In this document: positions 1,717 to 42,956 of the stretch, one piece after another | Layout of the letters: each line of letters starts with the position of its first letter | Numbering within the stretch: the first letter of the stretch is position 1 | DNA from: Ramlibacter alkalitolerans | GTDB lineage: Bacteria > Pseudomonadota > Gammaproteobacteria > Burkholderiales > Burkholderiaceae_C | Direction: 5' to 3' | NCBI RefSeq assembly: GCF_016722765.1 | Contig: NZ_JAEQND010000007.1 | Location: forward strand, 62,001-126,000 | DNA length: 64,000 bases | Notes under the pieces: generated by a model | Database searches by the model: none | Told to the model about the DNA's origin: nothing | Seen by the model: the letters and a program-made list of their open reading frames with translations, nothing else | Made by a program: the position numbers and the translations under genes

Positions 1717-2745
1717 TTATCTGCGGCGCTCAAGGCTGGCCGCGAAGGCGCGCAGGGTGGCGGGCGGCACTTCGCCGACCGCCGTGACCCACCAGTCCTG
1801 CACCCGGCGCGTGAGCGTGTGCGTCGCGCCGCTGGCGAACACGCCTTCGCGCAGGTGGCGCTCGCGGTCGAAGTCCTCGACGAAGAGCGAGACGGAGGCG
1901 AGGCCGTCCGAGAAGATCCACTGCAGCACGCCTTCGGCGCGGCGCTTGTAGCAGTTCACCGGCTTGAAGCCGGCCACCGGCTGCCGCAGGCCCCAGCCTT
2001 CGGCGGCGGGCGTGGTCTTGACCGCGTCGGCCTTTTCCACCCGCCAGCCTTCGGGCACCGCCATCATGTGCGAGAGCCTGTCCATGCGCACCGGCGCGTC
2101 GAGCTGCAGTTCGGAGAAGGCCGCCTGTTCCAGCACGTGGCCCTGTTCGTCCAGCGTCTGCAGCTTGACCATCAACCCGCTTTTCTTCTCGCTCCAGACC
2201 CGGTAGCCGAAGCGCAGGCCGTCCCGCGGCAGCACCTGCACGATGTCGGCGTCGAAGCCGGCGACGCGGTCGGCACCGACCCGGCGGGCGGTGTAGAAAT
2301 CGGCGATCGCGTTGTCTTCGGGCTTGAGCAGCTCGGGAAAGAGGCCGATCGCCTCGCGCCGTTCGCTGCGCACCGTGCGGGACTCCGGCAGGAAGGTCAG
2401 GACTTCGTCGTCGCGCCGGAAGGTGGAACGCTTCTCGCCGGAGAGCGCGTCGATGCGCTCCACCTGGCGCTGCCCGTCGCAGGCGTGCCAGATGCGGGCG
2501 CTGGCCATGCTGCCGTTGCTGGAAGACACGACGAACGTGCCCACGTAGTTGCGCTGCAGCGAGGCCTCCTGCATGCGCGAGAGCCATTCCGTGACGGTGC
2601 GCTCGTGGCGTTCCGACGGCCGCGGATCGGGCAGCGCCGGGGCGGCGAGCGCCTGCGTGACGAGCAGGGTGAGGGCGCCGGAAGCCAGCGCCAGGGCGCC
2701 ACGCGCCAGGCGCCGGCGGGCAAGGGCGGGAGCGTGGCGGGTCAT
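1717..2745 (-). CDS. rseB: RseB/MucB sigma-E regulatory protein
   Basis: A periplasmic regulator of 342 residues that in known systems binds the periplasmic part of the anti-sigma factor RseA/MucA and protects it from proteolysis until lipoprotein or LPS stress signals arrive. The N-terminus has a basic stretch and a hydrophobic segment (about residues 15-35) ending in ALAAPA, consistent with export. The two-part MucB/RseB fold is suggested by the N-terminal lipoprotein-localisation-like segment (EWLSRMQEASLQRNYVGTFV) and a C-terminal domain that includes FSDGLASVSLFVED. It lies 10 bases after rseA and 146 bases before degP, in the usual rpoE-rseA-rseB-degP order. Confidence is high from motif and context together. 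Confidence 0.9.
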   Translation of the reverse strand: MTRHAPALARRRLARGALALASGALTLLVTQALAAPALPDPRPSERHERTVTEWLSRMQEASLQRNYVGTFVVSSSNGSMASARIWHACDGQRQVERIDALSGEKRSTFRRDDEVLTFLPESRTVRSERREAIGLFPELLKPEDNAIADFYTARRVGADRVAGFDADIVQVLPRDGLRFGYRVWSEKKSGLMVKLQTLDEQGHVLEQAAFSELQLDAPVRMDRLSHMMAVPEGWRVEKADAVKTTPAAEGWGLRQPVAGFKPVNCYKRRAEGVLQWIFSDGLASVSLFVEDFDRERHLREGVFASGATHTLTRRVQDWWVTAVGEVPPATLRAFAASLERRR

Positions 2746-2755
2746 CCTCAGGCGG

Positions 2756-3337
2756 TCACCGGCCCGGAGCCTCGAAGGTGGCGTTGCGCAGGAAGCCCGA
2801 GGGCGTCTGCAGCACCGTCGTGCCGGCGAGCTGGCGGTGCGCCTGCAGCAGCTGGTCGAGGCGCGGGTCGCGGATGAGGGTGGCGTTCACCACGTCGCCG
2901 GCCGCCGGCGCCACCGGCGCCGGTGCCACGGCGAGCTGGGGCTGTGCAGCGGGCGCGGCGCTGCCGCTCCACACGTTCCAGCCGACGGCCGCCACGGCGG
3001 CCATGGAGGCGACGCCGGCGGTGAGCTTCCACAGCCAGTCGTTGGCAGCCGGCCGCTGCTCCTGCCGCTGCACCTGCGCTGCCGCCCGCGCAGGGGCGGC
3101 CTGCGGCGCTTCCTGCTTGAGCCGCTCGCGCAGGCGCGCCAGGAAGGCCTCGGGCGGAGTGCCGCGGGCGGTGCTCCCGGAGCGCAGGACCTCGCCCGCG
3201 ACGTGATAGGCACACCAGGTGGTTCGCGCGCGGGCATCGGCGCTTGCCGCCTGCACGCCACGGGCGAACGCCTCACCCTGCAGCTGCCCGTCGGCGAGTG
3301 CCGAAATCAGTTCCTGGTTGTCCATCCTGTTGTCCAT
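2756..3337 (-). CDS. rseA: Anti-sigma-E factor RseA/MucA
   Basis: A single-pass inner-membrane anti-sigma factor of 193 residues that should sequester RpoE. The cytoplasmic N-terminus begins with the family-typical ELISALADGQLQGEAFARG stretch and contains WCAYHVAGEVLRSG. One membrane segment lies near residues 103-123 (LTAGVASMAAVAAVGWNVW), followed by a short periplasmic tail. A second in-frame ATG (3325), immediately preceded by AGG, would give 189 residues, and the true start is not settled. It follows rpoE by 18 bases. The extreme C-terminus (FEAPGR) lacks an obvious hydrophobic tail of the kind recognised in RseB/DegS-type signalling, so the activation route may differ. Confidence 0.88.
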   Translation of the reverse strand: MDNRMDNQELISALADGQLQGEAFARGVQAASADARARTTWCAYHVAGEVLRSGSTARGTPPEAFLARLRERLKQEAPQAAPARAAAQVQRQEQRPAANDWLWKLTAGVASMAAVAAVGWNVWSGSAAPAAQPQLAVAPAPVAPAAGDVVNATLIRDPRLDQLLQAHRQLAGTTVLQTPSGFLRNATFEAPGR

Positions 3338-3355
3338 TGCTTCATGTCCGCGCCG

Positions 3356-3994
3356 TCACCACCGCTTGCCCGACTGGTTCTCCAGCATGGGCTTGACCTT
3401 CGCCGAAATCGCCTCGCGGGCCCGGAAGATCCGGGATCGCACCGTGCCGATCGGGCAGTTCATCACTTCCGCGATCTCCTCGTAGCTCAGGCCCTCGATC
3501 TCGCGCAGCGTCACGGCCTGTCGCAGTTCGTCGGGCAAGGCCTCCATGGCCGAGTTGACCGTGGCGGCGATTTCCTTGGCCGCGAGGACCGTTTCCGGCG
3601 TCTCGGCGCTGGTTAGTTCGTTCTCGACGCCGGAAGTTTCTTCCTCATCATCGCCACCTTTGAGGGCGCTCTCGGAAACCACCGGATCGCGCTTGAGGTC
3701 GACCAGGGCTTTTTTCGCGGTATTGACTGCGATCCGGTACAGCCAGGTGTAGAACTGCGCCTCGCCGCGGAACTGCGAGAGGGCGCGGTAGGCGCGGATG
3801 AAGGTTTCCTGCGCGATGTCCTCGATCAGGTCGGTATCGCGCACCATGCGGCCGATCAGGCGTTCGATGCGGCGCTGGTACTTGATCACCAGCAGCTCGT
3901 ACGCCTTCTGGTCGCCGGCCACCGTGCGCTCCACCAGCATCAGGTCGGTGTCGCCGGACGACGGTGCGGGAGCAGCGGGAGGCGTCTTGGTCAT
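3356..3994 (-). CDS. rpoE: RNA polymerase sigma-E factor (RpoE/AlgU)
   Basis: An ECF (group IV) sigma factor of 212 residues that directs RNA polymerase to envelope-stress promoters. Region 2 is recognisable from DLIEDIAQETFIRAYRAL and FYTWLYRIAVNTAKKAL, and region 4 from LPDELRQAVTLREIEGLSYE and CPIGTVRSRIFRAREAI. The start overlaps the stop of the preceding small membrane protein gene by four bases (ATGA), indicating translational coupling. The next genes are its anti-sigma factor and regulator. An acidic insert near residues 104-123 (GDDEEETSGVENE) between regions 2 and 4 is typical of the betaproteobacterial version. Confidence 0.96.
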   Translation of the reverse strand: MTKTPPAAPAPSSGDTDLMLVERTVAGDQKAYELLVIKYQRRIERLIGRMVRDTDLIEDIAQETFIRAYRALSQFRGEAQFYTWLYRIAVNTAKKALVDLKRDPVVSESALKGGDDEEETSGVENELTSAETPETVLAAKEIAATVNSAMEALPDELRQAVTLREIEGLSYEEIAEVMNCPIGTVRSRIFRAREAISAKVKPMLENQSGKRW

Positions 3995-4452
3995 TGTTCG
4001 GCCGGCGGCGGTTCACCGGCTGGGGGCACAGGCGCGCTGGCGCGCGAATATACCGCACGGCGCAGCGCCTCCCAGTGCGCCGGATCGCGCGCGCTTTCCA
4101 GCCATAGCCAGCGCACGCGGCCCGTTTCCGGCTGCCAACGCAGCAACATCCGATTCTGCAGGTCGAAAGCGATTTCGGGGTGGCCGGCGCCCGCCAGGCC
4201 GCCCTCCTCCCAGCTCCAGCCGGCCCCGTTCCAGCACAGCACGCCGGCCGGCGAGCGCCACCACGCCGCCAGCGCCAGCAGGCCGCCGCCGAGCGCAGCG
4301 GCCAGGCCGAGGGCCTGGCGCCAGCCGAAGGCGTCGGATTGCAGGCTCCAGCCGACGGCCACGCCCAGCCCGGCGAGCGCCGCCAGGGCATGCAGGCCCG
4401 CGGCGAACGCGCTGCGCCCCACCGGATAGCTCACCGATGGGGCCGCGTGCAT
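3991..4452 (-). CDS. Small two-helix membrane protein, possibly YgfX/CptA-like
   Basis: A protein of 153 residues that I do not firmly recognise. Two hydrophobic segments (about residues 15-35 and 47-65) are followed by the tryptophan-rich stretch WWRSPAGVLCWNGAGWSWEE and a soluble tail. Size, two N-terminal helices and the WWRSPAG-type transition resemble the YgfX/CptA family of small inner-membrane proteins, but this is an inference. It lies 15 bases after fabF, and its stop overlaps the rpoE start by four bases (ATGA), so it is translated together with the sigma factor and may act in envelope stress. Confidence 0.7.
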   Translation of the reverse strand: MHAAPSVSYPVGRSAFAAGLHALAALAGLGVAVGWSLQSDAFGWRQALGLAAALGGGLLALAAWWRSPAGVLCWNGAGWSWEEGGLAGAGHPEIAFDLQNRMLLRWQPETGRVRWLWLESARDPAHWEALRRAVYSRASAPVPPAGEPPPAEQ

Positions 4453-4467
4453 ATCGGGCCGAAAGCG

Positions 4468-5709
4468 CTAGATGCGCCTGAAGACGAGCGATCCGTTGGT
4501 GCCGCCGAAGCCGAAGTTGTTCTTCAGCGCCACGTCGATCTTCATGTCCCGCGCCTCGTTGGCGCAGTAGTCCAGGTCGCATTCCGGGTCCTGGTTGAAG
4601 ATGTTGATGGTGGGCGGACTCTTCTGGTCGTGGATCGCCAGCACCGTGAACACCGACTCGATCCCGCCGGCGCCCCCCAGCAGGTGGCCCGTCATGGACT
4701 TCGTCGAGTTGACCACGACCTTCTTCGCGTGCTCACCCAGCGTGTTCTTGATCGCGTTGGTCTCGTTCACGTCGCCCAGCGGCGTGGAAGTGCCGTGGGC
4801 GTTGAGGTACTGCACCTGGTCGGGGTTGATGCCGGCGTTCTTCAGGGCGGCGGTCATCGAGCGGCGCGGGCCGTCGACGTTGGGGGCCGTCATGTGGTAC
4901 GCGTCGGCGCTCATGCCGAAACCGGCCACTTCCGCGTAGATCCTGGCGCCGCGCTTCTTCGCGTGCTCGTACTCTTCCAGCACCAGCACGCCGCCGCCTT
5001 CGCCCAGCACGAAGCCGTCGCGGTCCTTGTCCCAGGGGCGGGACGCGGTCTTGGGGTCGTCGTTACGGGTGGAAAGCGCCCGGGCCGCGGCGAATCCGCC
5101 GATGCCCAGCGGCGAGACCGTCGATTCGGCGCCGCCGGCGACCATCACGTCGGCGTCCCCCGCCTCGATGAGGCGCGCGGACAGGCCGATGGCATGCAGG
5201 CCGGTCGTGCAGGCGGTGACCACGGCGATGTTGGCGCCCTGGAAGCCGTAGCGGATCGACACGTGGCCCGAGATCATGTTGATGATCGAGGCCGGCACGA
5301 AAAACGGCGAGATGCGGCGCGGGCCGCGGTTCATGTATTCGCCGTGCGTCTCCTCGATCATCGGCAGCCCGCCGATGCCGGAGCCGATGTTCACGCCGAT
5401 GCGGGTGGCAAGCTCGGGATCGAGCTGGTCACCGGTGGGCAGGCCGGCATCCTGCACCGCCTGCGCGGCAGCCGCCATCCCGAGGTGGATGAAGCGGTCC
5501 ATGTGGCGCGCTTCCTTCTCGGGCATGTAGTCCGCCACGTTGAAGTTCTTCACTTCCCCCGCGAACCTCACCGAAAGGGCGCTGGCATCGAAGGACGTGA
5601 CCAGGTCGATGCCGCTCCTGCCCGCGAGCAGGTTGGCCCAGGATTCGGCGACCGTATTTCCCACCGGGCTCACGCAGCCCAGTCCCGTCACGACGACGCG
5701 GCGACGCAT
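4468..5709 (-). CDS. fabF: 3-oxoacyl-[acyl-carrier-protein] synthase II
   Basis: Beta-ketoacyl-ACP synthase II of 413 residues, which condenses malonyl-ACP with growing acyl-ACP in type II fatty-acid elongation. The thiolase-fold catalytic triad is visible: the nucleophile Cys167 in VTACTTG, one His in [11 protein letters not shown] and a second in [13 protein letters not shown]. Length is normal for FabF. It lies 8 bases after acpP, which encodes its carrier partner, and starts the run into the rpoE region, so sigma-E gene transcription may be partly driven from fatty-acid promoters. Confidence 0.97.
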
Positions 5710-5717
5710 CTCGGGTC

Positions 5718-5966
<249 letters not shown>

Positions 5967-30930: not shown

Positions 30931-33492
30931 TCACTGGTCCAGCCGGACCTGGTAGGTGACGGAGAGCTGCGCCCCGGCCGGCAGCGCGCCGGTGAAGGTC
31001 CAGCGCACGCCGCCCGCCGTTCCGGCCGCCGGCTGGCTGCTGACGCTGCAGGCGGTGACCCCGGGCGGCAGCACTCCCGGGCAGGCCGCGTCCACGAAGG
31101 TGGTGAAGGCCGCCGTGCTGTCGTGGATCGCCAGCGTGGTGACCGGGCTGCTGCCCTGGTTCTGGGCGATCAGCGTGTAGAGCAGGACGTCCCCCGGAGT
31201 CGCGTTGACGTGGGTCGCCAGCCCGCCGCCGCGCGTCACGTTGCTCACGCGTTTCTGCAGCACCAGCGCCACCGGTTCGCCGACGGTGGTGAAGTCGGTG
31301 ACGGTCACCGTTGCCGCGAGGGCGGGAGTGGCGTTGGTGAAGGTGAACTGCGCGGTGACGGTCAGCGTGTTCTGGGCACCGAGGGGCGCGCCCGCCGGGA
31401 CGAACTGCTTGACGATCAGGCACACCTGGTCGCCCGCATTGACGCTGATGGCGGCCGACAGCACCGGCTCGGTGTTCTCCAGCGTCGCACTGCAGTTCGT
31501 GTCGCGGTAGATGATGCTGGTCCAGCCCGAGATCGCCGGCTGCGCCGCGGCGCTCACCGAGAACGCCACCTGGCCGCCGCTGCCGGCGTCGAAAGTATGC
31601 GGGTAGAACACCGCCGTGCCCGGCAAGGCGGACTGCGTGCCGTTGGGTGCGAACTCCGGAGACGCGACGAACCCGATGGCGACGCCGGTGTACTGCTGGC
31701 CCGCGACCGGGGTGAACACGAGGTTCGGGCGCGTGAAGGTGCCGCCGGTCGTGCCGGCACTGCCGCCGCTGGCGATCTGGCCGGCGGGCACCTGCGCCGG
31801 GCCGATGGCCAGCGTTCCCGTGCCTGCGGGCAACCAGAGCGTGAAGCTGCCGTCGCCCGCCGTGACGGCGCTCGCGACCATCGTGCCACCGGAGAGGGCG
31901 CGCACCGTGAGGCCGGCGATGCCGGCTTCGCTCGCCTGCCGCGCACCGTCGTTCGCGATGCCGCCGCCGGTGCCGAGGTCGGCAAAGACCGAACCGGTGA
32001 GGCGCGAGCCGTTGAACAGGCCGAAGTACTGCGGCGGCTCGGGATTGGTGCCGCCGGCGACGCTGATCGGCACGGAGCCGCTGCCGTTCTGAATGCCGAT
32101 CCAGCCGGTGGGCAGGGTCGGCGTGATGTCGCTCAGGGTGTTGTTGGTATCGAGCACCAGGCAGTAGTCGCCCCCCGGCACGCTGGGGAAGTTGAACGCG
32201 CCCGTCGCCGCCGTCACCGTGGCCACCTGCTTCGCCGGGCCGGTGCACGTTCCGGCCGGGTTCGGCACCAGCTTGACGTACAGGCCCGACACGCCGGTGC
32301 CGCTCTCGGCCGCGTCCTGCGCGCCGTTGCGGTTGGCATCGCTGTAGACCGTGCCGCCGACGGAACCGGGGATCGGCGTGCTGGTGAAGGTGCAGGCGAT
32401 CGAATCGCCGTACTTCAGGCTGCTGAAGGTGTACGTGTTCACCGCCTGGTTCACCGGCAGCGGGGTGGTCGACGAGGTATTGGCGTTGACGCAGGTGAGC
32501 GACGTCGTGTAGCTGGCCAGCGTGCCGATGCTGCCGGGGGCCATGGACTGCACCACCTGGAACGGGTAGCTGGCAGCCACCGTGGGCATCACCGCCGGGG
32601 CGAAGCCCGTGAGCGTGGTCCCCGAGGTGGCACCCGAGACGAGCGTGGTGCCCGTTCCCGTCCGCAGGGAATACGCGAGCTGGTCCGCGGGATTGGAGCG
32701 GCTGCCGTTGAACTGCGACACCACCGAGATCGATGCATAGCGCACGCCGATGATCACGCCCTGCAGGCCGCCGCCGTCGATGGTGGCGCGGATGGTCGTC
32801 GGGTTGCCGTCGGAACGGTAGATGTTGCTGCCCACCGTGCCGCTGACGCCGGTCAGGGTCACGGTCTGGCCGCCGTTGGTGATGCTCTGCGTGGGGAAGG
32901 TGTTGCTGGTTCCGTTGCGGATCTGGGCGACCCGCGTCCAGTCGTTGCCGTTCGTATTGAACACCAGCGTCTCGCCGGCGTTGGAGGATTCGCCGTCGGC
33001 CACGATGATGGAGTAGTTGGCCGTGCCGCCGGTGGGCGGCGTGACCACGATGTTGGTCAGATTGACGCGCGCGGAGCTGGCGTTCTTCGCGTTGTACAGA
33101 ACGGGCTGGCCGGGGATGCCCATGAACGCCTTGTTGCCGAACGCCGAGTCGCTCCACGACGGCACGCCCACCGCGGTCACGGCGGTCTCGTTGTTGCCGA
33201 CGCCACTGAGGCTGTCGACCACGACCTTCAGCGAGATGCGGGTGCCATCCGGCAGGTCGAAGCGGAAGGACTGCCCTGCGCCGCGGGCAGTGCCGTCGTT
33301 GTAGCCCGAGAAGTCCAGCCAGCAGTAGTCGCGGTAGTCGGACGGCGCCGTGCCCGCCTGCAACGCGGGGTTGCAGGTGCTGACGGTCTGGGCCTGGACC
33401 CTGCCCGGGCCGCCCAGGGCCAGCAGCAGGGCCACCGCGACGAGCAGGAAGGCGCGCCAGGCGCAGCGGACGAAGAGCGGGGCGCGGCTCAT
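30931..33492 (-). CDS. Secreted SdrD-B/DUF11 surface protein (gene D of cluster)
   Basis: An exported protein of 853 residues. Signal peptide: about residues 1-36 (AFLLVAVALLLALGGPGRVQAQ). The N-terminal module (YCWLDFSGYNDGTARGAGQS onward) resembles the CshA-type adhesin domain. Two SdrD-B-like domains follow, one with GGTVYSDANRNGAQDAAESG at about 377 and one near 500. The end is a DUF11 repeat (about 740-853) finishing VTYQVRLDQ. The start overlaps the stop of the 2002-residue barrel protein by four bases (ATGA), so the two are made together. No sortase signal or membrane anchor is visible, so it may be held by the barrel protein. Specific role unknown. Confidence 0.85.
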   Translation of the reverse strand: MSRAPLFVRCAWRAFLLVAVALLLALGGPGRVQAQTVSTCNPALQAGTAPSDYRDYCWLDFSGYNDGTARGAGQSFRFDLPDGTRISLKVVVDSLSGVGNNETAVTAVGVPSWSDSAFGNKAFMGIPGQPVLYNAKNASSARVNLTNIVVTPPTGGTANYSIIVADGESSNAGETLVFNTNGNDWTRVAQIRNGTSNTFPTQSITNGGQTVTLTGVSGTVGSNIYRSDGNPTTIRATIDGGGLQGVIIGVRYASISVVSQFNGSRSNPADQLAYSLRTGTGTTLVSGATSGTTLTGFAPAVMPTVAASYPFQVVQSMAPGSIGTLASYTTSLTCVNANTSSTTPLPVNQAVNTYTFSSLKYGDSIACTFTSTPIPGSVGGTVYSDANRNGAQDAAESGTGVSGLYVKLVPNPAGTCTGPAKQVATVTAATGAFNFPSVPGGDYCLVLDTNNTLSDITPTLPTGWIGIQNGSGSVPISVAGGTNPEPPQYFGLFNGSRLTGSVFADLGTGGGIANDGARQASEAGIAGLTVRALSGGTMVASAVTAGDGSFTLWLPAGTGTLAIGPAQVPAGQIASGGSAGTTGGTFTRPNLVFTPVAGQQYTGVAIGFVASPEFAPNGTQSALPGTAVFYPHTFDAGSGGQVAFSVSAAAQPAISGWTSIIYRDTNCSATLENTEPVLSAAISVNAGDQVCLIVKQFVPAGAPLGAQNTLTVTAQFTFTNATPALAATVTVTDFTTVGEPVALVLQKRVSNVTRGGGLATHVNATPGDVLLYTLIAQNQGSSPVTTLAIHDSTAAFTTFVDAACPGVLPPGVTACSVSSQPAAGTAGGVRWTFTGALPAGAQLSVTYQVRLDQ

Positions 33493-36400
33493 GGCTTCCT
33501 GGCGGGCGGCGCGTCGGGTGCGCCCTGCTCGGCGCCCAGCAGGTTCTCGTCGAACTTGTAGCGCAGGCGCAGGTAGGCACCGCGCTGCGTGTAGCCTTCG
33601 CCGGCCAGGTCCGCGGCGTTGAAACCCCGGAAGTTGTAGCCTACCGACAGCCACAGGTTGTTCATCACCATGTAGCCCAGTTCCAGACCGAGCGCGCTTT
33701 CGGCGGCGCCATCGCCCCAGAGGCGGTAGCCCTGCACGCCGACGTCCCAGCGGGAGCCCAGGTCCCAGGTGGAGCGCACACCGGCCAGGCGCGTGTGCGA
33801 GGTGCTGGCGAGGCCTTCGCTGCGGTCCTGGGCGCGCTTGGCGGCCAGCCGGACGCGCATCGTCCAGTCGGCATTCGGCTGCACATTGAGGTGGGTGGAG
33901 AAGATCAGGGAGGATTCGTCGCGCCGCGCATCGGCAGCCTGCGTATTGTCGCGGTCGTCGCGGTACTCGACGCGGGCGAGCGCGTTCCACTTGTCGCTGT
34001 CCACCGGCCGATAGGCGGCTCCTGCCTGCGCCGTCACCAGCCGCCGCTCGCCGCTGCCGTCGGTCTTTTCGTCGGTGTGGTACAGCGCCCGGTTCAGGAG
34101 GGTCCACTCCGCACCGAGCTTCTGCACCGAGGCCGCCGTCAGCAGCCAGCTGCGCGAGGTGGCGGAAGTCTGCCACTGGGCCTGGGCGGAGGCCTTCCAG
34201 TGCGCCGCCGACGTGTAGTCGACGCCAACGCTCAGGGCGGTGGAGTCGTCGCTCGCGGCGCGGCCGGCCAGGTGCTTGATGCGCTGGAAGGCGCCGCTGA
34301 TCCCCAGCCCGCTGTCGAGGCGCACGGTGCGGCGCAGGCCGACGGCCGCTTCGCTGCTGCGGCCGTCGATCGCGTCGCCGACCCGGTATTCGTTGAACAG
34401 CTGGGTGGAGTCGGGCAGCGTCGTGTCGATCCCCGCCACGGTCGAATAGCGCGAGAAGTCGGTGCTGAGCGTGTACGGTCCATTGAGGCTGTTGATGAAG
34501 TCGTGCCGCAGGTACGCCTTGCTGCTCGCGTTCAGCGCGTAATTGGCGCCGATGCCGATCTCGCGCCCGCCGCTGCCGTCGATGGCGAATTCGGCCAGGC
34601 CGAAGACTTCCGCCTGCGGCAGGCCCGGCACCGGCGCGGTCAGCTTCAGCCGCGCGCTGGTGTAGCCGGATGGTTCGGTGGACGCACCGGCGGCGGGCGG
34701 GACCACGGGCTCGATGACGGGGCTGCTGGTGCCGGGCAGCGCCGGGCCGGTGGCCGCCGCCTGCGCGTTGCTGCTGCTGTGGCGCAGGCCGACCTCCAGC
34801 TTGGCGTTGCCTCCCAGGCTGTGTTCCAGGCGCAGCTCGGCGCCGGTCTGCTCGGCGCCCGTGGCACCGGTGGTGGTGCGCAGGGCCTCGCCGACGATGC
34901 GGTTGCGCTCGTCGATGGTGTAGGCCGCCTTGGCGCCGTACTGCGCCTGGCCAGCCGACTGCGGGCTGCCCGGGTTGAAGAATCCTTCATCGCTGCGCGA
35001 GGCCCAGGCGTGGGCCTGCAGGCCTCCCTGCTCGTGGCGCAGCTCGATCCGCTGCGCGCTGCCTTCGCCTTGCAGGTCGGTGCGGCTGTGGGCGGCTTCC
35101 GCCGTCAGCACCGTCTTCTCGCGCAGCCGCGCCTCCAGCGTCAGGCCGTGCAGCTGCTGCCGGTTGGCCGGGTCCTGGTCGCGCACGGCGAGCGCGCCGG
35201 CCGTCACGCCCGGGAGCACCTGGACGCGCACCTCCGCACCCTCCACCGCGTGCTGCGGGCCGCCGTTGTCGACGTCGTAGCCCACGCGCACGAACACCGG
35301 GTTGAGGTCCGCATCGACGCTCGGCACCGGGTCCTTCAGCAGCAGCAGCCCGCCGAGCGCGTCGATGGAGTAGTCCGTGAAGCGCTCCAGTGGCGTCTCT
35401 TTCAGGATGCGCGAGAGCTGGTCGCGGCTGCGGGTGACGATGCGGACCTGCTCGCTGTTGGCCACCGCGTTGGCATCGAGGCGCAGGGGTCCCGAGGTGC
35501 CGTTGGCGCGGAATTCCTGCACCACCTGGGTGGCGGCGGTGCGGCTGGCGAAGGCCTCCGCGGTGACGGTGCCGTTGCTCCAGTGGCCCTTCACGCCATG
35601 CAGCGCGCGGGCGTACTGCGTGAGCTGGCGCGCGGGGTTGTCGCTCTGCGTGGCGAAGTCGCCGGCCAGGGCGTAGTTGCTGCCGTTCTGCAGCAGCACG
35701 TAGAGGCGCCCGCTGGACTGGGCCTCGAAGCCGCGCACCGAGGAGTCGCCGTACACCGGATAGAAGCGATCCGGCTGGATGTCGCGCAGCAGGCGCGTGT
35801 CGGGCTTGTCCGAGTCGTAGGCCAGCGTCAGGAGGCTGGATCCGAGGACCTTGCCCTTGAGGAACAGGCTGGCGCGGGCGCCGGCGTCGTTCCTGCCGCC
35901 GTCGAAGCTGCGCGACAGGCTCTGGATCTGGCGCTCGAACACGTCCCCGCCTTGCGCCGGGTGCAGCGCCGCGGGGCTCAGGTTGCGCAGGTTGATCGCG
36001 CCTTCGATGATGCCCGCGGCAATCAGCGGCCGCAGATTGGGCACGAGTTCGGCCTGGGCACGGCCCTTGGCCAGCCCGACGTCGGCCGTCACCTCCAGCG
36101 GCCCCGGCTGCGCCGGCGGCAGCAGCAGGAAGCGGCCGGAACCGCCCTCCACGAACACCTGCATGCCGGGCTGCGCCGGGTCGGCATCGGTCACCTGCCA
36201 CTGGCCCGTACTCGCGTGCAGCGTCACGCGGGTGCGCGCCACCACGGGAACGCCGTCCGCATCCTCCAGCGCGAGTTCCACCGGCACCGCGCTGGCGGCG
36301 TCGGCGACGATGCTGGCCGGCAGCGCGACCCGCACGGTCGCGAGCCGCCCTGGCGCCAGGACGGTGAGCTCCGAGCGCCCGCGCACGTTGCCGAACGGAT

Positions 36401-39400
36401 CGAGCACCGCCACGGCCACGGTGTTGCGCCCCGGCCGCAAGTCCACCCCGATGTACTCCCATGCCGTGACGCCGGACTGCTCCAGGCTGCTGCGCTTGCC
36501 GACCTGCCGGCTGGGCACCGCCACGCCGTTGACGGTCAGCTCGAAGGTGGCGCCCAGCGGGCCCTTCACGCGCACCCGCGTCTGGGCCGCGGGCAGGACC
36601 TGGCCGTCGCGCAGGTTGACGACGGCGACCTCGGGCGAGAGTTGCGGCAGCAGTTCCTCCAGCGGCGGCTCCTGTGCCGGCGCCGGCGCGGGCGCCGCGT
36701 CGGCCGGCGGCTCCGCTGCGGACCCGGCGGGCGGCGGCTGCACGTACAAGGGGGCCTGCGTGCCTTGCAGAGCGGCCGCCTGCGAGCCGCCGGCGTCGCC
36801 GACGGCGCCGAGCGGGCTGCGCGGGGACGGGCTGCCGGGCGCCGCACCGGGGAGACCCAGGGTGCCGCTGGCCGGCAGGGTGCGGGCGTCGACGGCGGAC
36901 GGCGGCGTCGTGGACAGCAGCATCGATGCCGCCTGCGTGATCTCCGAAGGCCGGTTCAGGCCTGCGCGGCGCGCGGTGAGCTGGGCGTCCAGCGCCGGGC
37001 CGCAGCCCGACACCACGAAGTCCGCCTTGTGCAGTTCGCCGCGGGTGAGGTCGACGAAGCGGCTTCCGGCATCGCCGCCATTGCGCTGGTCGAGCACTTC
37101 GAGCCTGGTACCCGCGGGCAGCGTCGTGCGGTCCACCTTGGCCACGTGGGTGCGCGGCACGAGGCCGTAGACGCTGTACTTGCCCTCCTCGTCGGTCACG
37201 GTGTAAGTGCCGTCGTCCAGGTAGATCCGCACGCCGGGGATGCCCGGCTCGCCGGCATCCTGCAGGCGGTTGCGGTTGCAGTCGGCGTAGACCTTGCCGA
37301 TCACGTAGGCGTCGTCGGCGAACACGCCGCCCACCACCTGCACCTTGACGCTGGCGCGGTTGGAGGAGATGCCGCTGCCGCTCGCTTCGGCGGTGTTGAT
37401 GCCGGAGCCACCCAGGCTGCCGGCGCCGATGCGCACCCGGTAATGCAGGGCGACGGTCTTCCCCTGGCCGATGGTGCCCACGGCAAAGCGCTGGCGCCCG
37501 CCGGCGACGGCTTGCGGGTCGGCCAGCGGCGCACCGTCCAGCCGCGCGCTGCCCGGCACATACGTGAAGCCGGCGGGCAGAGCGTCCAGCACTTCCACCC
37601 GCGGCAGCGGCACCTGCAGCACGTTGGCCACGCGCACCGTGTAATCGACGAAGCCGCCGACTTCGGCGACCGTCTTGCTGGCGCGCTTTTCCACCACGAG
37701 ACCGCCGCTGTCTCCGGTGTCGAGCGGGACGTCGAAGCGCACCGGGCGGCTGTCGAGGCGGAAGTCGCGGCCGTAGGAGCCGGCGCTGTTGATGATGCGG
37801 CCCGCCGGCTGCAGGACCTGCGGCAGCGCCGACGGGAAGGTGAAGCCGCGCGCCGGCGTCACCTTCAGGCGGTACGTGCTGGGTTGCAGGAGGGGAAAGG
37901 AGAACACCCCGTCGGCGCCGGTCACCATCTTCGAAGGCGCAGCGGACACGCCGTCCTCCGCCAGCACCCTGGCCGGCCCGCCGGGCTGGCCGCCGTTGCC
38001 GGCGCCCGCCACGTCGATCAGTTCCACGGTGGCGCCGGCCAGCGGCAGGTTGCTGCGGCTGTCGAACACCACGCCGCTCGGGTCGACCAGCAGGTCGGTG
38101 GTCGCCCGCACGGACACGCCGCCGCAGGCCGTGATGCTGGCGGTCACGATGTCGTTGCGCAGCACCTCCAGCACGCCGTTGCCGGTGGCCACGACGTGCA
38201 GCGCGGCGTTGGCCGTCGGCACGTCGGGCAGGATGCGGAACAGGCCCGTGTTCGCGCCCGTCTCCACCGCCATGAAGACCTCGGTGTCGCCGCTCAGCTG
38301 GCTGACCACGTTCACCGGCACCGTTTCCGGCCGCAGCGATTCCGTGTTGCACATCGCCGCGTCGACCTGCACGTACAGCGGCCGACCGGCGGTGGTCTGC
38401 ACGGCGGCGGCGCTGTACTGGTCGCTCGCGAAGAACCGGATGCCAGGCGCGCGCGTCGGCAACCCGAGCAGTACGGTATTGCTGCCGGCCAGCTTGCGCG
38501 TGCCCCGGTCGCTCCAGTCCGCCTGCGCCACGCCGGTCAGGGTGCCGGCGGCATTCTCGTGCACCGTCACGCTGAAGCGTCCCTGCGCCGCGCGCCCAGG
38601 CGCGAGCACGGGCAGCGCCCAGGCCACCGCGTCCACTGCGGCCGCCGCGGGCGGCGCGCTGACGTAGCTGTCGATCGCCGCGCCGACGACGTGGTACAGC
38701 AGGCGCGCCTCCGCGGGGCTGCCGGCCCGCGCGCTGGAGAAGGTGGTGTTCACCGGGATCGCCATGCGGAACCGCCACAGCGACGCTTCGGCGCCATCGA
38801 CGGTCAGCGCAACCGGGCCGACGTCCGCGTTGCCGGTGTTGCTGGCCGAGACGAGCCATTCGACCGTGTCGCCGGGGCGGGTCGAGGCCACGGACGCGGC
38901 CAGCGTCACCTGCAGGGCCGCGCCGCTGGTGGCGGTGAGGGTGTCGACGTTGCGGGCCCGGGCGCCGTCCTTGGCGGTGATCGCCTCCACCACCAGCATC
39001 GCGGCCTGGCCGACGCCGGCACTCGCCGGCACCAGGCCCGTCACCAGCAGGTAGGCGGTCGCGCCCGGTTCCAGGTCGATGCCCGCCGGCCCGACCTGCG
39101 GCTCACCCGCGTCGACGCGCGCGTTGCGGTTCACGTCCTGCACGACCTGAACGTCGGAGGGAACGAAGGCGCTTCCCGCCTGCACGCTGGTGGCCACGCG
39201 GTACTTCGCGGCCACGTTGCCGGTATTGGTGAGCACGTGGCCGGCCGTGAAGGGCGTGCCGGAGGCCAGCGTGAGGGCCTGGTCGGCCGTGAGCGTGACG
39301 GCTTCGAGCGGAAGCACCACCGTGTCCACGGTGTTCGAGCTGAGGCGGACCGAATTGCCGCTGGTGGTGTCGACGAAGGAGGCGAGCGCCGTGTTGCGGA

Positions 39401-39497
39401 TCACCGTCCCGGCCGCGGGCGCACCGGCCTGGACCGCGGCCCAGTACAGGAGCAGCAGCCAGCAGGTGAGGAGATTGCGCAGCCAGCCACGGGACAT
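33489..39497 (-). CDS. Giant DUF11/SdrD-B protein with C-terminal outer-membrane beta-barrel (gene C of cluster)
   Basis: A 2002-residue exported protein. Signal peptide about residues 1-24 (WLLLLYWAAVQAGA). The N-terminal domain is a paralogue of the start of gene B (shared HVLTNTGN). DUF11 segments near 600-720 (VDYTVRVANVLQVPLPRVEV) and an SdrD-B-like domain near 740-800 (GKVYADCNRNRLQDAGEPG) follow, then a proline/alanine linker near 930. From about 1190 to 1985 alternating amphipathic strands and many aromatic girdle residues suggest a large outer-membrane beta-barrel; YLRLRYKF looks like a beta-signal, followed by a 20-residue tail rich in Ala and Pro. No ribosome binding site is obvious at the ATG. 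Likely anchors the cluster's proteins at the cell surface (inference). Confidence 0.85.
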   Translation of the reverse strand: MSRGWLRNLLTCWLLLLYWAAVQAGAPAAGTVIRNTALASFVDTTSGNSVRLSSNTVDTVVLPLEAVTLTADQALTLASGTPFTAGHVLTNTGNVAAKYRVATSVQAGSAFVPSDVQVVQDVNRNARVDAGEPQVGPAGIDLEPGATAYLLVTGLVPASAGVGQAAMLVVEAITAKDGARARNVDTLTATSGAALQVTLAASVASTRPGDTVEWLVSASNTGNADVGPVALTVDGAEASLWRFRMAIPVNTTFSSARAGSPAEARLLYHVVGAAIDSYVSAPPAAAAVDAVAWALPVLAPGRAAQGRFSVTVHENAAGTLTGVAQADWSDRGTRKLAGSNTVLLGLPTRAPGIRFFASDQYSAAAVQTTAGRPLYVQVDAAMCNTESLRPETVPVNVVSQLSGDTEVFMAVETGANTGLFRILPDVPTANAALHVVATGNGVLEVLRNDIVTASITACGGVSVRATTDLLVDPSGVVFDSRSNLPLAGATVELIDVAGAGNGGQPGGPARVLAEDGVSAAPSKMVTGADGVFSFPLLQPSTYRLKVTPARGFTFPSALPQVLQPAGRIINSAGSYGRDFRLDSRPVRFDVPLDTGDSGGLVVEKRASKTVAEVGGFVDYTVRVANVLQVPLPRVEVLDALPAGFTYVPGSARLDGAPLADPQAVAGGRQRFAVGTIGQGKTVALHYRVRIGAGSLGGSGINTAEASGSGISSNRASVKVQVVGGVFADDAYVIGKVYADCNRNRLQDAGEPGIPGVRIYLDDGTYTVTDEEGKYSVYGLVPRTHVAKVDRTTLPAGTRLEVLDQRNGGDAGSRFVDLTRGELHKADFVVSGCGPALDAQLTARRAGLNRPSEITQAASMLLSTTPPSAVDARTLPASGTLGLPGAAPGSPSPRSPLGAVGDAGGSQAAALQGTQAPLYVQPPPAGSAAEPPADAAPAPAPAQEPPLEELLPQLSPEVAVVNLRDGQVLPAAQTRVRVKGPLGATFELTVNGVAVPSRQVGKRSSLEQSGVTAWEYIGVDLRPGRNTVAVAVLDPFGNVRGRSELTVLAPGRLATVRVALPASIVADAASAVPVELALEDADGVPVVARTRVTLHASTGQWQVTDADPAQPGMQVFVEGGSGRFLLLPPAQPGPLEVTADVGLAKGRAQAELVPNLRPLIAAGIIEGAINLRNLSPAALHPAQGGDVFERQIQSLSRSFDGGRNDAGARASLFLKGKVLGSSLLTLAYDSDKPDTRLLRDIQPDRFYPVYGDSSVRGFEAQSSGRLYVLLQNGSNYALAGDFATQSDNPARQLTQYARALHGVKGHWSNGTVTAEAFASRTAATQVVQEFRANGTSGPLRLDANAVANSEQVRIVTRSRDQLSRILKETPLERFTDYSIDALGGLLLLKDPVPSVDADLNPVFVRVGYDVDNGGPQHAVEGAEVRVQVLPGVTAGALAVRDQDPANRQQLHGLTLEARLREKTVLTAEAAHSRTDLQGEGSAQRIELRHEQGGLQAHAWASRSDEGFFNPGSPQSAGQAQYGAKAAYTIDERNRIVGEALRTTTGATGAEQTGAELRLEHSLGGNAKLEVGLRHSSSNAQAAATGPALPGTSSPVIEPVVPPAAGASTEPSGYTSARLKLTAPVPGLPQAEVFGLAEFAIDGSGGREIGIGANYALNASSKAYLRHDFINSLNGPYTLSTDFSRYSTVAGIDTTLPDSTQLFNEYRVGDAIDGRSSEAAVGLRRTVRLDSGLGISGAFQRIKHLAGRAASDDSTALSVGVDYTSAAHWKASAQAQWQTSATSRSWLLTAASVQKLGAEWTLLNRALYHTDEKTDGSGERRLVTAQAGAAYRPVDSDKWNALARVEYRDDRDNTQAADARRDESSLIFSTHLNVQPNADWTMRVRLAAKRAQDRSEGLASTSHTRLAGVRSTWDLGSRWDVGVQGYRLWGDGAAESALGLELGYMVMNNLWLSVGYNFRGFNAADLAGEGYTQRGAYLRLRYKFDENLLGAEQGAPDAPPARKP

Positions 39498-39570
39498 GGG
39501 GTGAAGGGGGGTACCTGCTCTGGTGGGTCGCAGAGCTTTCCGCAGGCCACCGCGATGGCCTGGGGAAAGC

Positions 39571-39595
39571 GGGGAAGGGCCTTCGGCCCCTCCCC
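39571..39595 (-). promoter_or_regulatory. Hairpin between genes B and C of the DUF11 cluster
   Basis: GGGGAGGGGCC and GGCCCTTCCCC on the minus strand pair with one mismatch around a 3-base loop, 16 bases after the gene B stop and 74 bases before gene C. No T-run follows, so it may lower read-through or protect the gene B mRNA end and reduce expression of gene C relative to B, not terminate fully. Confidence 0.5.
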
Positions 39596-39610
39596 TTGCC
39601 TACCCGGGGG

Positions 39611-42292
39611 TCACTTGTCGATGCGCACCCCGAACGTGATCACCGCCGATTGGCCCGCCGGCAGGATGCCGCCGGTGGTGTCGCTCGCGTTCATGCCGAT
39701 GTGCGCCTTGATCGAGCCAGTGGCTCCCACCGCCAGCGGCGGGGCGACGATCCTGCTGTCGGCATGGCCCGAGGCGATGCTGGGGACCGTGCTGATCTTG
39801 GTGAAGGTCGGCGTGGCGTCGGACACCACCACGTTGGTCGCGTCCGCGGCGCCCACGTTGGTCACCGTCACCCGGTACAGGACGCACTGGTCCGGCTTGG
39901 CCGACAGGGTGGCCTGCGTCCAGGTGGTGATCGGCGCGACGAACTCGGGCGTGCCGTCGCAGTTCGTGTCGAGCGCCTGCTCCTTGACGAGCGTCAGGTT
40001 GCCGGCGATCACCGTGGTGCTGTCGGTGGCCACGGTGGCCGCCGGTGCCGCAACCGTGTAGGTGCCCTTCGACGTCGTCACCGTGATGGTGGCGCCGTAG
40101 ACGCTGCCCGGGACCGCGCCGCTGGGCGCGATGACACGGTGCAGGACGGTGATCGATGCACCCTTGGCCAGCGTGAGGTTGAACGGACCGGTCACGATGG
40201 TGTCGTTCGCATCCAGCGCGCCGTTGCCGTTCATGTCCACGTACAGCGTGGACGACCAGCCACCCGTGGCGGGAACGTCGGGCGTCAGCGAACTCAGCGC
40301 GCCGCCTTCGTCGACGTTGCCGTTGTTGGTCAGCGTGTGGACGTAGACGTAGGAGCCGCCGGGGTAGGTCTGGCCCGTTCCGTTCGGCGTCAGCGCGACG
40401 GAGCGGACGGTGTTGACCACCACTTCGTCCTGCAGCACGTCGGCGGCGCCCGAGGCGGGAGACAGCAGGCGGAAGAACAGGCCCTTCGCGCCGGGAGCGA
40501 ACCCGGTCGGAACGGACACCACCGCGCAGAAGAAGGCATTGCCGCCGGCCAGGATCGTGCCGGTGTTGGTCACGGTCGTGCCCGTGCTGCTGCAGCTGTT
40601 GCTCACCGCGGTGCGGAATTCGACCGTCCAGCCGGCAGGCAGCGTGGTACCGCCGACGGTGGTGCCGACGCTGAAGTTGTAGGTGTCGGGCGCGAGGCCG
40701 GTGTTGTTGGCGACGAGGGTGAACACCACCGTCGTGCCCGGATCCGCGGCCTTGCTCACCTGCACGGCACCGCCGGTCGCGTCGCTGACGCCGGCGCCCT
40801 TCACGCCGCTTCCGGTGACCGCATCGTTGGTGAGGTCGACGGACGCAGCAGTGATCTGGCCCAGGGTGTCCTTGCCCATGGCGCTCACACCCGTGTTCAG
40901 GGTGGACGTGGCGACCACGTTGACCTGCAGCGACGTGCCGGTGGCGTTCGGCGGCAGCGTGGCGCGCACGACCACGTTGTACGTGCCGTTGTTGCCGTTC
41001 ACCGGGCCGGTGTCGATGATGCCGTCGTTGTTGGTGTCCACCAGCGGCGTCGTGCCGTCGCTCTTGAACAGCTGGAAGGACGTGCCGGCCGGGAAGTTGC
41101 TGCCCGACAGCGTGATGTTGAAGGTGTCGCTGCCGTTGCCCTTGTTGGTCACCACGTTGGTGGTGGTCACCGTCGTGCCGGCAGGGGCGGGGCTGGGCGC
41201 GAAGGTGGCGTCGCCGACGGACACGTCCGCCGTCTGGGTCACCGTGAACGCCACGCTGTTCGACGTGGACGTCGCCGACGCCGGGGTACCGCCGGTGGCG
41301 TAGTCCACGCTCGCCGTGTTGTTCAGGACGCCGGGGGCGGTGCCGCTGGCGACCGTCACCGTGAACTTCACCTGGCCGGACTGGCCCACCGTCACCTTGT
41401 TGATGGTGGCGACGAACTTCCGGTTCGCCACGTCGTAGGTGTACTTCAGGGTCTGGGTGCCGCTGGTGGCGGTGACGTTTTCCGTCAGGGCCGTCGTGCC
41501 CGTGCCGCTCCACAGGCCGGAGCCGCCATTCATCGACATGCCGGACGGCAGGATGTCGGTGATGACGACCGTGCTGGCGTCGCTGTTGCCGTTGTTCGTA
41601 TAGGTCAGCGTGTACTGGATGTTGTTCGTACCGGCCGGGCCGCTGGAGACGCTGATCGACTTGGTCAACTGCATGACGGCGTTGCCGGTCACCGTCGTGG
41701 TGTCGGTGTTGCTGCCCGTCTTGCCCGTGTCACCCTGGCTGGTCGCCGTCACGGTGATCGTGTTGGTGTTGCCGGCCGTCGCGGTCGTCGGCACGGTGCC
41801 GCGCACGATGAACTTGAAGGTCGCACCGGCGGCCACGGTGATGTCCTGCGTCGACGTGATCGGTGCACCGGTGGGCGCGCCGCTGCCGTTGTCCGCATAG
41901 ATCTCGATCGCCGACATGGCGGGGCTGTTCGTCTGCGACGTGGTCAGCCTGAACTTGTCGCTGCCGTTGCCGGTGTTGGTCAGGGTGTGCGGGTAGTACA
42001 CGACGCTGCCCGGGGTGGCGGTCTGCACGCCGTCAGTGGCGAGCAGCAGGCTGTACACCTGCGTGACCGTCGTCTGCACCACGTTGGAGCTCACGGTGCG
42101 CGAAACGCCGGAGCCGTCCGAGTACGTGGCGGACGCCTGGTTGCTGATCGACACGCCGGCCGTCGGGGCGGCGGCGCGGGCTGGCGTGGGCGCGAGCCAC
42201 AGCGTCAGCAGCATCAGGACGGCGACCGCCATCCAGCGCATGAACGGGGCCCACGGCGCCGGGCGCGGTGGGCTGAGAGGCACAGCATGCAT
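39611..42292 (-). CDS. Secreted DUF11-repeat stalk protein (gene B of cluster)
   Basis: An exported protein of 893 residues, nearly all Thr/Val/Asn/Gly-rich beta-sandwich repeats of the DUF11 type. The ATG at 42292 has a good AGGAGA site upstream. Signal peptide about 1-39 (MAVAVLMLLTLWLAPTPARA). The N-terminal module contains ISNQASATYSDGSG and YYPHTLTNTGNGSDKF; later units repeat TNNGN or TNKGNGSD. Calcium-loop-like DxNxDG/DxNGNG motifs occur (DTNNDGIID, DMNGNGALDAND). It ends directly at VITFGVRIDK, without anchor. It probably forms an extended surface or extracellular stalk; partner and receptor unknown. Confidence 0.85.
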   Translation of the reverse strand: MHAVPLSPPRPAPWAPFMRWMAVAVLMLLTLWLAPTPARAAAPTAGVSISNQASATYSDGSGVSRTVSSNVVQTTVTQVYSLLLATDGVQTATPGSVVYYPHTLTNTGNGSDKFRLTTSQTNSPAMSAIEIYADNGSGAPTGAPITSTQDITVAAGATFKFIVRGTVPTTATAGNTNTITVTATSQGDTGKTGSNTDTTTVTGNAVMQLTKSISVSSGPAGTNNIQYTLTYTNNGNSDASTVVITDILPSGMSMNGGSGLWSGTGTTALTENVTATSGTQTLKYTYDVANRKFVATINKVTVGQSGQVKFTVTVASGTAPGVLNNTASVDYATGGTPASATSTSNSVAFTVTQTADVSVGDATFAPSPAPAGTTVTTTNVVTNKGNGSDTFNITLSGSNFPAGTSFQLFKSDGTTPLVDTNNDGIIDTGPVNGNNGTYNVVVRATLPPNATGTSLQVNVVATSTLNTGVSAMGKDTLGQITAASVDLTNDAVTGSGVKGAGVSDATGGAVQVSKAADPGTTVVFTLVANNTGLAPDTYNFSVGTTVGGTTLPAGWTVEFRTAVSNSCSSTGTTVTNTGTILAGGNAFFCAVVSVPTGFAPGAKGLFFRLLSPASGAADVLQDEVVVNTVRSVALTPNGTGQTYPGGSYVYVHTLTNNGNVDEGGALSSLTPDVPATGGWSSTLYVDMNGNGALDANDTIVTGPFNLTLAKGASITVLHRVIAPSGAVPGSVYGATITVTTSKGTYTVAAPAATVATDSTTVIAGNLTLVKEQALDTNCDGTPEFVAPITTWTQATLSAKPDQCVLYRVTVTNVGAADATNVVVSDATPTFTKISTVPSIASGHADSRIVAPPLAVGATGSIKAHIGMNASDTTGGILPAGQSAVITFGVRIDK

Positions 42293-42344
42293 GGTCTTGT
42301 TTCTCCTGGGAATCGTTGGAATCGGTTTGGCGGGTGCCTGCCGT

Positions 42345-42857
42345 TCAGGGCTTGGCGGCCGCGGTCTCCGCGGCAGCGTCGATGCGAACACGCAGGGCGA
42401 CGGCACGCTGGCCCGAGGCGGGCAGCGCGCCGAGGTCCCAGCGCACGAAGCGGTAATCGGCCAGCGGCACCGGCTCCTGGCGGGTGCTGCCGTCGGCCTG
42501 GCGCACGGTGCGCATCAAGGGCATGGCGGCGAAGCGCGCGCCATCGGTCGACGCCTGCGCGCCGGCGGGATCGGTGCTGGCCTCGACGAAGGTCGTGCCG
42601 GCGGGGATCGGGATCGTGGCGGCGAGCTTGTCGGCCGCGGTCTTGCCGGTGTTGCGGTAGGTCGCGGTGTACGCGACCAGGTCGCCAGGCTTGACGCTGT
42701 CCGCCTTCGTCCTCGAAAGCTGTCCGGAGGGCGCGGCAACCAGTTTCTCGGCGACGAGCTGGCTCTGCACGCTGGGTTGCGCCCAGGCGGCGCAGCCGAG
42801 CGCCGCAAGGGCTCCCGCGACCAAGGCCGCGCGGAGGGTGGATCGATGGCTTGTCAC
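42345..42857 (-). CDS. Small secreted single-DUF11 protein (gene A of cluster)
   Basis: A 170-residue exported protein, first of the four-gene cluster. The GTG start at 42857 has GGAG 8 bases upstream; the longer open frame lacks a signal peptide at its end. Signal peptide about 1-28 (AALVAGALAALGCAAWAQ). The mature part is one DUF11-like unit (KPGDLVAYTATYRNTGKTAA, then IPAGTTFVEAS) and closes with LPASGQRAVALRVRIDAAAE, like the ends of genes B and D. A promoter with a perfect -35 lies upstream. A subunit or cap of the surface structure is plausible but unproven. Confidence 0.8.
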   Translation of the reverse strand: MTSHRSTLRAALVAGALAALGCAAWAQPSVQSQLVAEKLVAAPSGQLSRTKADSVKPGDLVAYTATYRNTGKTAADKLAATIPIPAGTTFVEASTDPAGAQASTDGARFAAMPLMRTVRQADGSTRQEPVPLADYRFVRWDLGALPASGQRAVALRVRIDAAAETAAAKP

Positions 42858-42926: not shown

Positions 42927-42956
42927 ACGATACGAGAACGTAACGACATGTGTCAA
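42927..42956 (-). promoter_or_regulatory. Promoter of the DUF11 cluster
   Basis: On the minus strand a perfect TTGACA (42951-42956), an 18-base spacer and TATCGT (42927-42932). Transcription would begin near 42920, about 63 bases before gene A. The surrounding 42858-43179 gap (322 bases) is AT-richer than its flanks and holds this promoter on minus and, presumably, the lldD promoter on plus; I see no gene in it. Confidence 0.6.

Follow-up and report, generated by a model that had tools for sequence, protein, structure and literature searches.

How could separately exported proteins be assembled into one surface structure when several of their chains are cut in the middle of a domain? The question is raised by four neighbouring minus-strand genes, here called A, B, C and D, in a stretch of 64,000 nucleotides from Ramlibacter alkalitolerans (contig NZ_JAEQND010000007.1, positions 62,001 to 126,000), which is referred to as the window. 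We consider it fairly probable that these genes encode an adhesive surface fibre made from DUF11 (CLIPPER) domains that are split between subunits and probably closed covalently, running from the barrel protein C through repeated copies of B to the adhesin D. An acceptor is taken here to be a DUF11 domain that has lost its last hairpin, and a donor to be the hairpin that could complete it. An earlier reading of the letters alone (the sequence-only reading) had given four open reading frames (ORFs) of 170, 893, 2002 and 853 residues and a four-base overlap of C with D; all are real, and each protein opens with a signal-peptide-like stretch, as read from its sequence.

42345..42857, minus strand: gene A, 170 residues, GTG start; signal-peptide-like start and a single truncated DUF11 domain, putative acceptor only, without the catalytic Asp
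39611..42292, minus strand: gene B, 893 residues; putative donor hairpin, chain of Ig-like domains and terminal acceptor; proposed repeating or linking subunit
33489..39497, minus strand: gene C, 2002 residues; putative donor hairpin, Ig-like stalk, linker and predicted outer-membrane barrel; proposed anchor or export platform
30931..33492, minus strand: gene D, 853 residues; adhesin head that varies among relatives and putative terminal acceptor; proposed tip adhesin
33489..33492, minus strand: overlap of 4 nt between the C stop and the D start, from the ORF coordinates

The split of the domain was computed directly by comparing protein termini across relatives. A scan of named genomes yielded 15 loci with a relative of C, in Polaromonas, Ramlibacter, Glaciimonas, Collimonas, Pelomonas, Acinetobacter and proteobacterial metagenome-assembled genomes (loci carry L numbers and genomes G numbers below). 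From these loci a first set of 10 A, 10 complete B, 12 complete fused C and 11 D sequences was drawn, to which the window adds one of each; the B of L007 and the C of L011 (both cut) and the C of L019 and L020 (split) were excluded. Measured against a 138-position profile built from the intact DUF11 domains inside B and C, B and D stop at the same point of the fold, inside a beta domain. The match to the last domain of B ends at position 101-103, at most 3 residues from the chain end, in 11/11 sequences, and that of D ends likewise in 10/12, with only partial matches in L010 and L016. For A the match runs to position 103-116, with a tail beyond it (11/11); this tail extends a short way past the last strand in most relatives, unlike the ends of B and D.

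The part missing from the terminal domains of A, B and D is the last hairpin of DUF11; one of this kind stands at the start of B and of C, a few residues past the signal-peptide-like stretch. A profile of the B donors scores 12 of the 13 C N-termini higher than any of 1880 shuffles, and the reciprocal profile of the C donors does the same for all 11 B N-termini; these donor profiles match neither end of A or D, nor the C-terminus of B. Past residue 40, no 36-residue window of B is more conserved than the donor, which scores 0.775 compared with 0.60 for the equivalent internal hairpin. Together, the truncation points and the hairpin matches at the termini suggest that A is an acceptor, B both donor and acceptor, C a donor and D an acceptor. 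Chains cut in mid-domain, with the hairpin carried by B and C, point to a concrete joining mechanism and to a polarity.

42378..42773, minus strand: A truncated DUF11 acceptor, residues 29-160 (Pfam and DUF11 profile)
42053..42160, minus strand: B N-terminal donor hairpin, residues 45-80, with invariant Asn51 (alignment, conservation)
41225..41677, minus strand: B internal complete DUF11/CLIPPER domain, Lys211/Asp246/Asn325 (Pfam, NCBIfam, alignment)
39614..40009, minus strand: B terminal truncated DUF11 acceptor, residues 762-893, with invariant Lys770 and Asp825 (profile, alignment)
39294..39416, minus strand: C N-terminal donor hairpin, residues 28-68, with Asn35 (alignment; docking modelled on the Polaromonas relative L007)
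37323..37700, minus strand: C internal complete DUF11/CLIPPER domain, Lys604/Asp638/Asn701 (Pfam, alignment with 9IFR)
30934..31275, minus strand: D terminal truncated DUF11-like acceptor, residues 740-853, with invariant Lys747 and Asp791 (profile, alignment)

The acceptors also hold cysteines that could form disulfides near the joint, an invariant pair at 778 and 803 in B (11/11) and a different pair at 804 and 815 in D (11/12).

DUF11 was renamed CLIPPER in 2025, when a Lys715-Asn806 isopeptide bond was shown, with Asp748 as the presumed catalyst (PMC12617251). Lys604 and Asn701 of C align with Lys715 and Asn806 of structure 9IFR (E 0.0034), and Asp638 aligns with the Asp of the same motif, which by count in the alignment lies one residue off the paper's number. 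Complete internal domains hold each residue of this triad in 11/11 B and 13/13 C. The acceptor chains of B and D end before the Asn position, yet they keep the other two residues: Lys and Asp are each present in 11/11 B and 12/12 D acceptors of the first set. The donor Asn is found in 11/11 B and 11/13 C sequences, and the Asp is absent from all 11 A acceptors, where Ile, Val or Leu takes its place.

These counts were repeated on later loci that had not been used to form the idea, and in which B is 34-63% identical to the nearest first-set B and at most 79% identical to one another. Here Lys and Asp are each kept in 18/18 B acceptors (29/29 overall) and 14/14 D acceptors (26/26 overall); the donor Asn occurs in 18/18 B (29/29) and 17/18 C (28/31), and the Asp in 0/19 A (0/30). 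The later set came from 16 B-positive genomes, namely the window's own and 13 others examined, with G459 and G632 (partial matches) left out, and from 16 D-positive genomes, with G459 and G725 left out. Truncated N-terminal pieces of C were assigned to C by their position downstream of B, L079, which has no C piece, was not counted, and loci L040-L051 stand outside all counts. As judged from the alignments, the triad is thus split between proteins, with Lys and Asp in the acceptor and Asn in the donor.

Docking of a donor on an acceptor was seen in one predicted model, in which both were placed in one chain by reading through the B stop, where B and C share a frame. For the B acceptor and C hairpin of Polaromonas L007, AlphaFold2 (19 alignment rows: three fused, nine B-only and seven C-only, the C sequences of L014, L016 and L018 being excluded) gave a pTM of 0.69. 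Mean pLDDT over 10 residues is 88-97 across the acceptor, 44-74 along the linker of about 80 residues, and 90, 92 and 95 over residues 191-220 of the hairpin, falling to 76 over 221-230. The best match of the composite in the Protein Data Bank (PDB) is the pilin BcpA (3rkp_A, Z 16.1, rmsd 2.0 Å, 131 aligned, model residues 4-226), and the CLIPPER crystal structure 9ifr matches it with Z 12.9 and rmsd 2.1 over 120 residues. Since the acceptor alone has only 112 residues, the hairpin must take part in the predicted composite, and the triad of the model (Lys9, Asp58, Asn198) has each residue within a predicted strand.

The four genes travel together more often than chance would allow. The order A-B-C-D is found in 8 of the 15 loci (L006, L008, L010, L012-L015, L017) and in two later genomes (L030, L052), so that the set is a kept unit, as the sequence-only reading had supposed, and is not scattered. 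Contig ends cut the locus in L007, L009 and L011, leaving B-C or C-D; in Acinetobacter L016, A-B-C is followed by an OmpA gene and then by a different D; and in Polaromonas L019 and L020, two separate genes make up C, and A, B and D all went unmatched. Within the window's family, 15 of 60 genomes match the barrel profile, and B and the conserved part of D match the same two only, the window genome and G044. A fused C is present in these two and in G008 (65% complete), where A lies beside it and neither B nor D was matched. A search of 399 genomes of the order gave at least 16 with B and at least 16 with the conserved D part, 15 of them common to both (hypergeometric P 4e-25, with genomes treated as independent and, as many are related, a guide only); 299 genomes of the phylum gave B in at least 5. 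These counts are lower bounds because only the best 2 (B, order), 4 (D, order) or 3 (B, phylum) candidates per genome were scored.

Related genes also occur on plasmids. The Pacificitalea manganoxidans plasmid (rhodobacteral, alphaproteobacterial; L029:3-10286) carries A-B-C with donor, acceptor and triad. Plasmid p4 of Acinetobacter haemolyticus, typed as mobilizable (L026:6198-18563), carries B-like sequence annotated in at least three pieces, C, an OmpA gene and a D-like gene followed by a transposase gene; no A was identified there.

In the mechanism that we propose, a donor hairpin would dock in an acceptor to give a complete Ig-like (CnaA-type) domain, joining two chains head to tail. 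C, with its barrel and donor only, would be the root and the probable exit channel, and its donor would complete the C-terminal domain of B or D. B, bearing both halves, would act as extender, its donor completing the acceptor on the next B, D or A, while D, with an acceptor only and a variable N-terminal head, would form the tip; chains would end with D or A. The joint at B or D would probably be locked by a Lys-Asn bond, since the acceptor keeps Lys and Asp and the donor keeps Asn, and such an inter-subunit bond could form spontaneously, free of sortase, as a natural counterpart of SpyTag/SpyCatcher. A, which has only an acceptor, may be a cap or a periplasmic holder of donor hairpins; it has no Asp, so its binding should be reversible, and a reversible joint would suit a holder that stops donors from reacting early in the periplasm. 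Export through the barrel of C itself would be the simplest route. The fuller proposal, a sortase-free covalent pilus of Gram-negatives with half a CLIPPER domain per subunit, a barrel of about 36-40 strands for export and anchoring, adhesins of up to about 9,300 residues and an unreactive A as guard, has in our estimate close to an even chance of being right.

The anchor in this proposal lies in the C-terminal half of C, where no Pfam family matches above cut-off; none of the Pfam matches listed for C with E no higher than 1 is an autotransporter or intimin barrel family. A match to Invasin_D3, a passenger-type domain, reaches 14.7 bits against a cut-off of 33.

37104..37295, minus strand: C SdrD_B domain, residues 735-798 (Pfam)
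36663..37007, minus strand: C Pro/Ala-rich linker, residues 831-945, poorly conserved at 0.41 (sequence, alignment)
36033..36638, minus strand: C predicted beta-sandwich stretch, probably two domains, residues 954-1155, ahead of the barrel (AlphaFold2 model, structure comparison)
33549..35885, minus strand: C predicted outer-membrane barrel, residues 1205-1983 (AlphaFold2 model, structure comparison)

AlphaFold2, run on C 945-1988 with 15 relatives, predicts beta domains followed by long strands (pLDDT 74, pTM 0.57), a very large barrel-like run that agrees with the long barrel of the sequence-only reading. In the strand list of the model, 41 strands of at least 7 residues lie after model residue 261, and 32 of these from residue 456 onward; an uncertain number of them would make up the closed barrel. 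The best 50 of 1271 Foldseek rows are mostly varied outer-membrane barrels, with glycosidases for the first part and a few unrelated giants. The top three rows of the structure comparison are FimD usher chains (Z 15.9, rmsd 12.9, 369 aligned); the PapC pore gives Z 14.2 and rmsd 5.9 over 301 residues, and SprA, the type IX translocon (8gl8_A), Z 12.0 and rmsd 9.8 over 411 residues at 4% identity. Searched against PDB sequences, the barrel profile lists only the OmpT porin (E 0.007). A large outer-membrane barrel at the end of C is thus supported by the models.

A related barrel is encoded by a separate gene adjoining a C-like DUF11-SdrD_B gene in 7/7 fetched loci of the family (L032-L038, L032 being the same locus as L020), with a separate OmpA gene in 5 of them, and two plasmid records show the same pairing, their stand-alone barrels being annotated as 'TonB-dependent receptor' or 'OmpA family'. 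With the barrel separate elsewhere, C resembles two components of a broader module fused into one protein. In the stand-alone cases (L032-L038, L019, L020, L027, L028) the DUF11/SdrD_B gene precedes the barrel gene, often with a 4-nt overlap, and an OmpA gene or domain is frequent; on the Eleftheria terrae plasmid (L027:1-13178), a pair of SdrD_B and OmpA-barrel genes lies near a gene annotated as aminoglycoside adenylyltransferase.

The middle of each protein varies, and the ends are fixed. B ranges from 443 to 1014 residues, C from 1614 to 2538 and D from 553 to 5825, with termini kept while internal domains come and go; the minimal set, in G352 (A 189, B 443, C 1614, D 597 residues), retains all five termini. 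The D of G375 (5825 residues, L082:1214-18691) has a signal-peptide-like start and begins 8 nt past the C stop codon, and D open frames, counted from stop to stop, reach 7722 residues in G588 and 9316 in G496. The C-terminal part of D is conserved among relatives with differing heads: CshA_NR2 and SpaA_3 in the window, L008, L009, L011 and L012; SpaA_3 with no CshA_NR2 call in L006; DUF7933 repeats in L015; and no Pfam call in L010, L013, L014, L016, L017 and L026.

32743..33330, minus strand: D CshA_NR2 head, residues 55-250 (Pfam)
32374..32730, minus strand: D SpaA_3 prealbumin-like domain, residues 255-373 (Pfam)
32140..32364, minus strand: D SdrD_B domain, residues 377-451 (Pfam)

Pfam DUF11 scores of 26.9 bits in A, 44.9 in B and 46.1 in C exceed the curated cut-off of 24.6, SdrD_B is called in C and D, and C has a carboxypeptidase-regulatory-like domain as well. 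For an isopeptide-forming fimbrial domain of NCBIfam, B 209-331 scores 29.9 bits, just short of the cut-off of 30. The claim that all four proteins are built of DUF11/SdrD-B units therefore holds except for the N-terminal half of D, which is a CshA_NR2 head followed by SpaA_3. In PDB sequence searches, the D profile (alignment without the D of L016) and D itself match SdrD; searches with B and with acceptor-donor profiles gave nothing useful, and no PDB relative was found for the Acinetobacter B. A single match of an internal domain of the window's B (E 0.56) was taken as chance. A DUF11 domain of C weakly matches the Aureispira grappling hook protein GhpA (E 0.61).

Other readings of these data deserve consideration. 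The fibre could be built from the same split domains and held together without covalent bonds, as in chaperone-usher pili, with Lys, Asp and Asn serving for packing or simply inherited; the hairpin alone would suffice for docking, and Asn is missing from 3/31 C donors. We regard this as unlikely, although the most serious of the rivals, because Lys and Asp are invariant in the acceptors of B and D even though these domains end before Asn, while the equally truncated A has no Asp in 30/30 cases. If the four genes made ordinary, separate fibrillar adhesins with DUF11 stalks, the truncations would be chance boundaries and the barrel an unrelated porin or receptor. DUF11 arrays are indeed common in adhesins (PMC12617251), and Pfam recognizes only known stalk and head domains here. 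Such separate adhesins are improbable in view of a cut at the same place in 11/11 B and 10/12 D, a donor that is the most conserved window of B, and the sharing of B and D by 15/16 genomes. Slightly less probable still is that B closes on itself, its own N-terminal hairpin completing its own C-terminal domain to form a ring or clasp, with C and D meeting in some other way: both halves do lie on B, but an acceptor-only A and D and a donor-only C would be left unexplained, and the C donor docks on the B acceptor in the model.

Several observations weigh against the split-domain covalent fibre that we prefer. The Asn of the C donor is replaced by Ser in L014, Val in L018 and Gly in L076, and A has Lys at the aligned place in 4/11 sequences of the first set and 10/19 of the later loci (14/30). 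Profiles of internal hairpins recognize donors poorly: that of B (built without L016) scores above all shuffles in just 5/11 B and 3/13 C donors, and that of C in just 0/11 and 1/13. The terminal domain of D lies below the Pfam DUF11 cut-off, at 15.4 bits. The DUF11 protein of L032 also starts with a hairpin-like 'NTATV', with no acceptor partner seen next to it, so that having a hairpin is not in itself diagnostic. The predicted docking comes from a single fold, of one B-C pair read through as one chain on those 19 alignment rows. Pelomonas L018 has A-B-C and no D was found in the 9 kb after C, and no D was found beside A-B-C in Pacificitalea L029. Finally, siderophore receptors tie with FimD in the barrel comparison (PiuA, Z 15.4), so that an usher identity of the C barrel is not established. 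We rejected usher homology of C, given no family match and tied fold rows, as well as the FimD alignment as proof of mechanism, given its rmsd.

How, then, would the covalent split-domain fibre compare with known systems? Chaperone-usher pili (type 1 and P pili, with FimD and PapC) would resemble it in having a C-terminally incomplete Ig-like domain that is completed by the N-terminus of the next subunit, together with a large outer-membrane barrel. In these pili the proximal donor inserts into the distal acceptor, and the tip adhesin, such as FimH, has an N-terminal head and a C-terminal acceptor; by analogy, the fibre of A to D would share this polarity. It would differ in donating a two-strand hairpin rather than one strand and in splitting an isopeptide triad across the joint, and no Usher, PapD-type chaperone or pilin family is among the Pfam matches listed for A-D at E up to 1. 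At two other places of the window genome (contigs C29 and C3), Usher matches exceed the cut-off. Sortase-assembled pili (BcpA, RrgB, SpaD) are built of CnaA/CnaB-type domains and include the best structural match of the B-C composite, a BcpA domain that holds an isopeptide; in contrast, B and D end inside a beta domain, and no sortase or sorting-signal family was matched by A-D in Pfam or NCBIfam, in a search confined to these proteins. The two- or three-gene modules of DUF11, barrel and sometimes OmpA resemble the cluster in having a related barrel and a C-like DUF11-SdrD_B part as neighbouring separate genes, but there the DUF11 array is one long protein, and the profiles of B and D (A was not searched) are unmatched in the family genomes that carry them. 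Archaeal threads are not known to have an outer-membrane barrel.

The archaeal threads of Saci_0406 are similar in forming a head-to-tail donor-strand filament with a proposed inter-subunit isopeptide, in archaea with no known sortase; besides being archaeal, they differ in that the bond is proposed between Asp24 and Asn57, two subunits apart (PMC9715654). The main text of that paper has no word starting with 'DUF'. Acinetobacter silvestris B9T28_05395 (9IFR) shares the domain family and the Lys/Asp/Asn triad and combines a CshA_NR2-like head, a CLIPPER stalk and an OmpA-like anchor in one chain; its bond lies within that chain, and the part of the article consulted describes only intramolecular bonds (PMC12617251). 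F-ENA fibres, where DUF11 and donor strands appear in the same text, were set aside as a precedent, with DUF11 only in the anchor protein as far as the accessible portion goes (PMC11952670). In the titles, abstracts and passages covered from open-access PMC literature, with subscription papers and preprints mostly outside this scope, neither this cluster nor a CLIPPER bond between molecules was found described, which is no proof that such an account is missing from print.

Expression from one promoter, another proposal of the sequence-only reading, is plausible from the sequence rather than proven: the sigma-70-like site before A is the sole match in the stretch, agreeing at 10/12 positions where 0.4 matches are expected by chance.

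42927..42956, minus strand: promoter-like TTGACA-18-TATCGT upstream of A, by consensus match only

Of the assembly envisaged in that reading, the conserved unit, the predicted barrel and the adhesin-type head on D are borne out, as is the lack of a sortase or type V family in the four proteins, the part of the genome that was searched; the mid-domain split of the chains was unforeseen, and a sheath was rejected, as nothing was found in its favour.

If the proposal is true, Gram-negatives have their own counterpart of SpyTag/SpyCatcher for building fibres, one that calls for no sortase, chaperone or usher family, and new protein-linking pairs would become available. The DUF11 ends of unannotated proteins would gain a function, as would a large family of barrels that at present carry receptor or OmpA labels, and there would be an explanation for the way in which very large adhesins may attach to the outer membrane.

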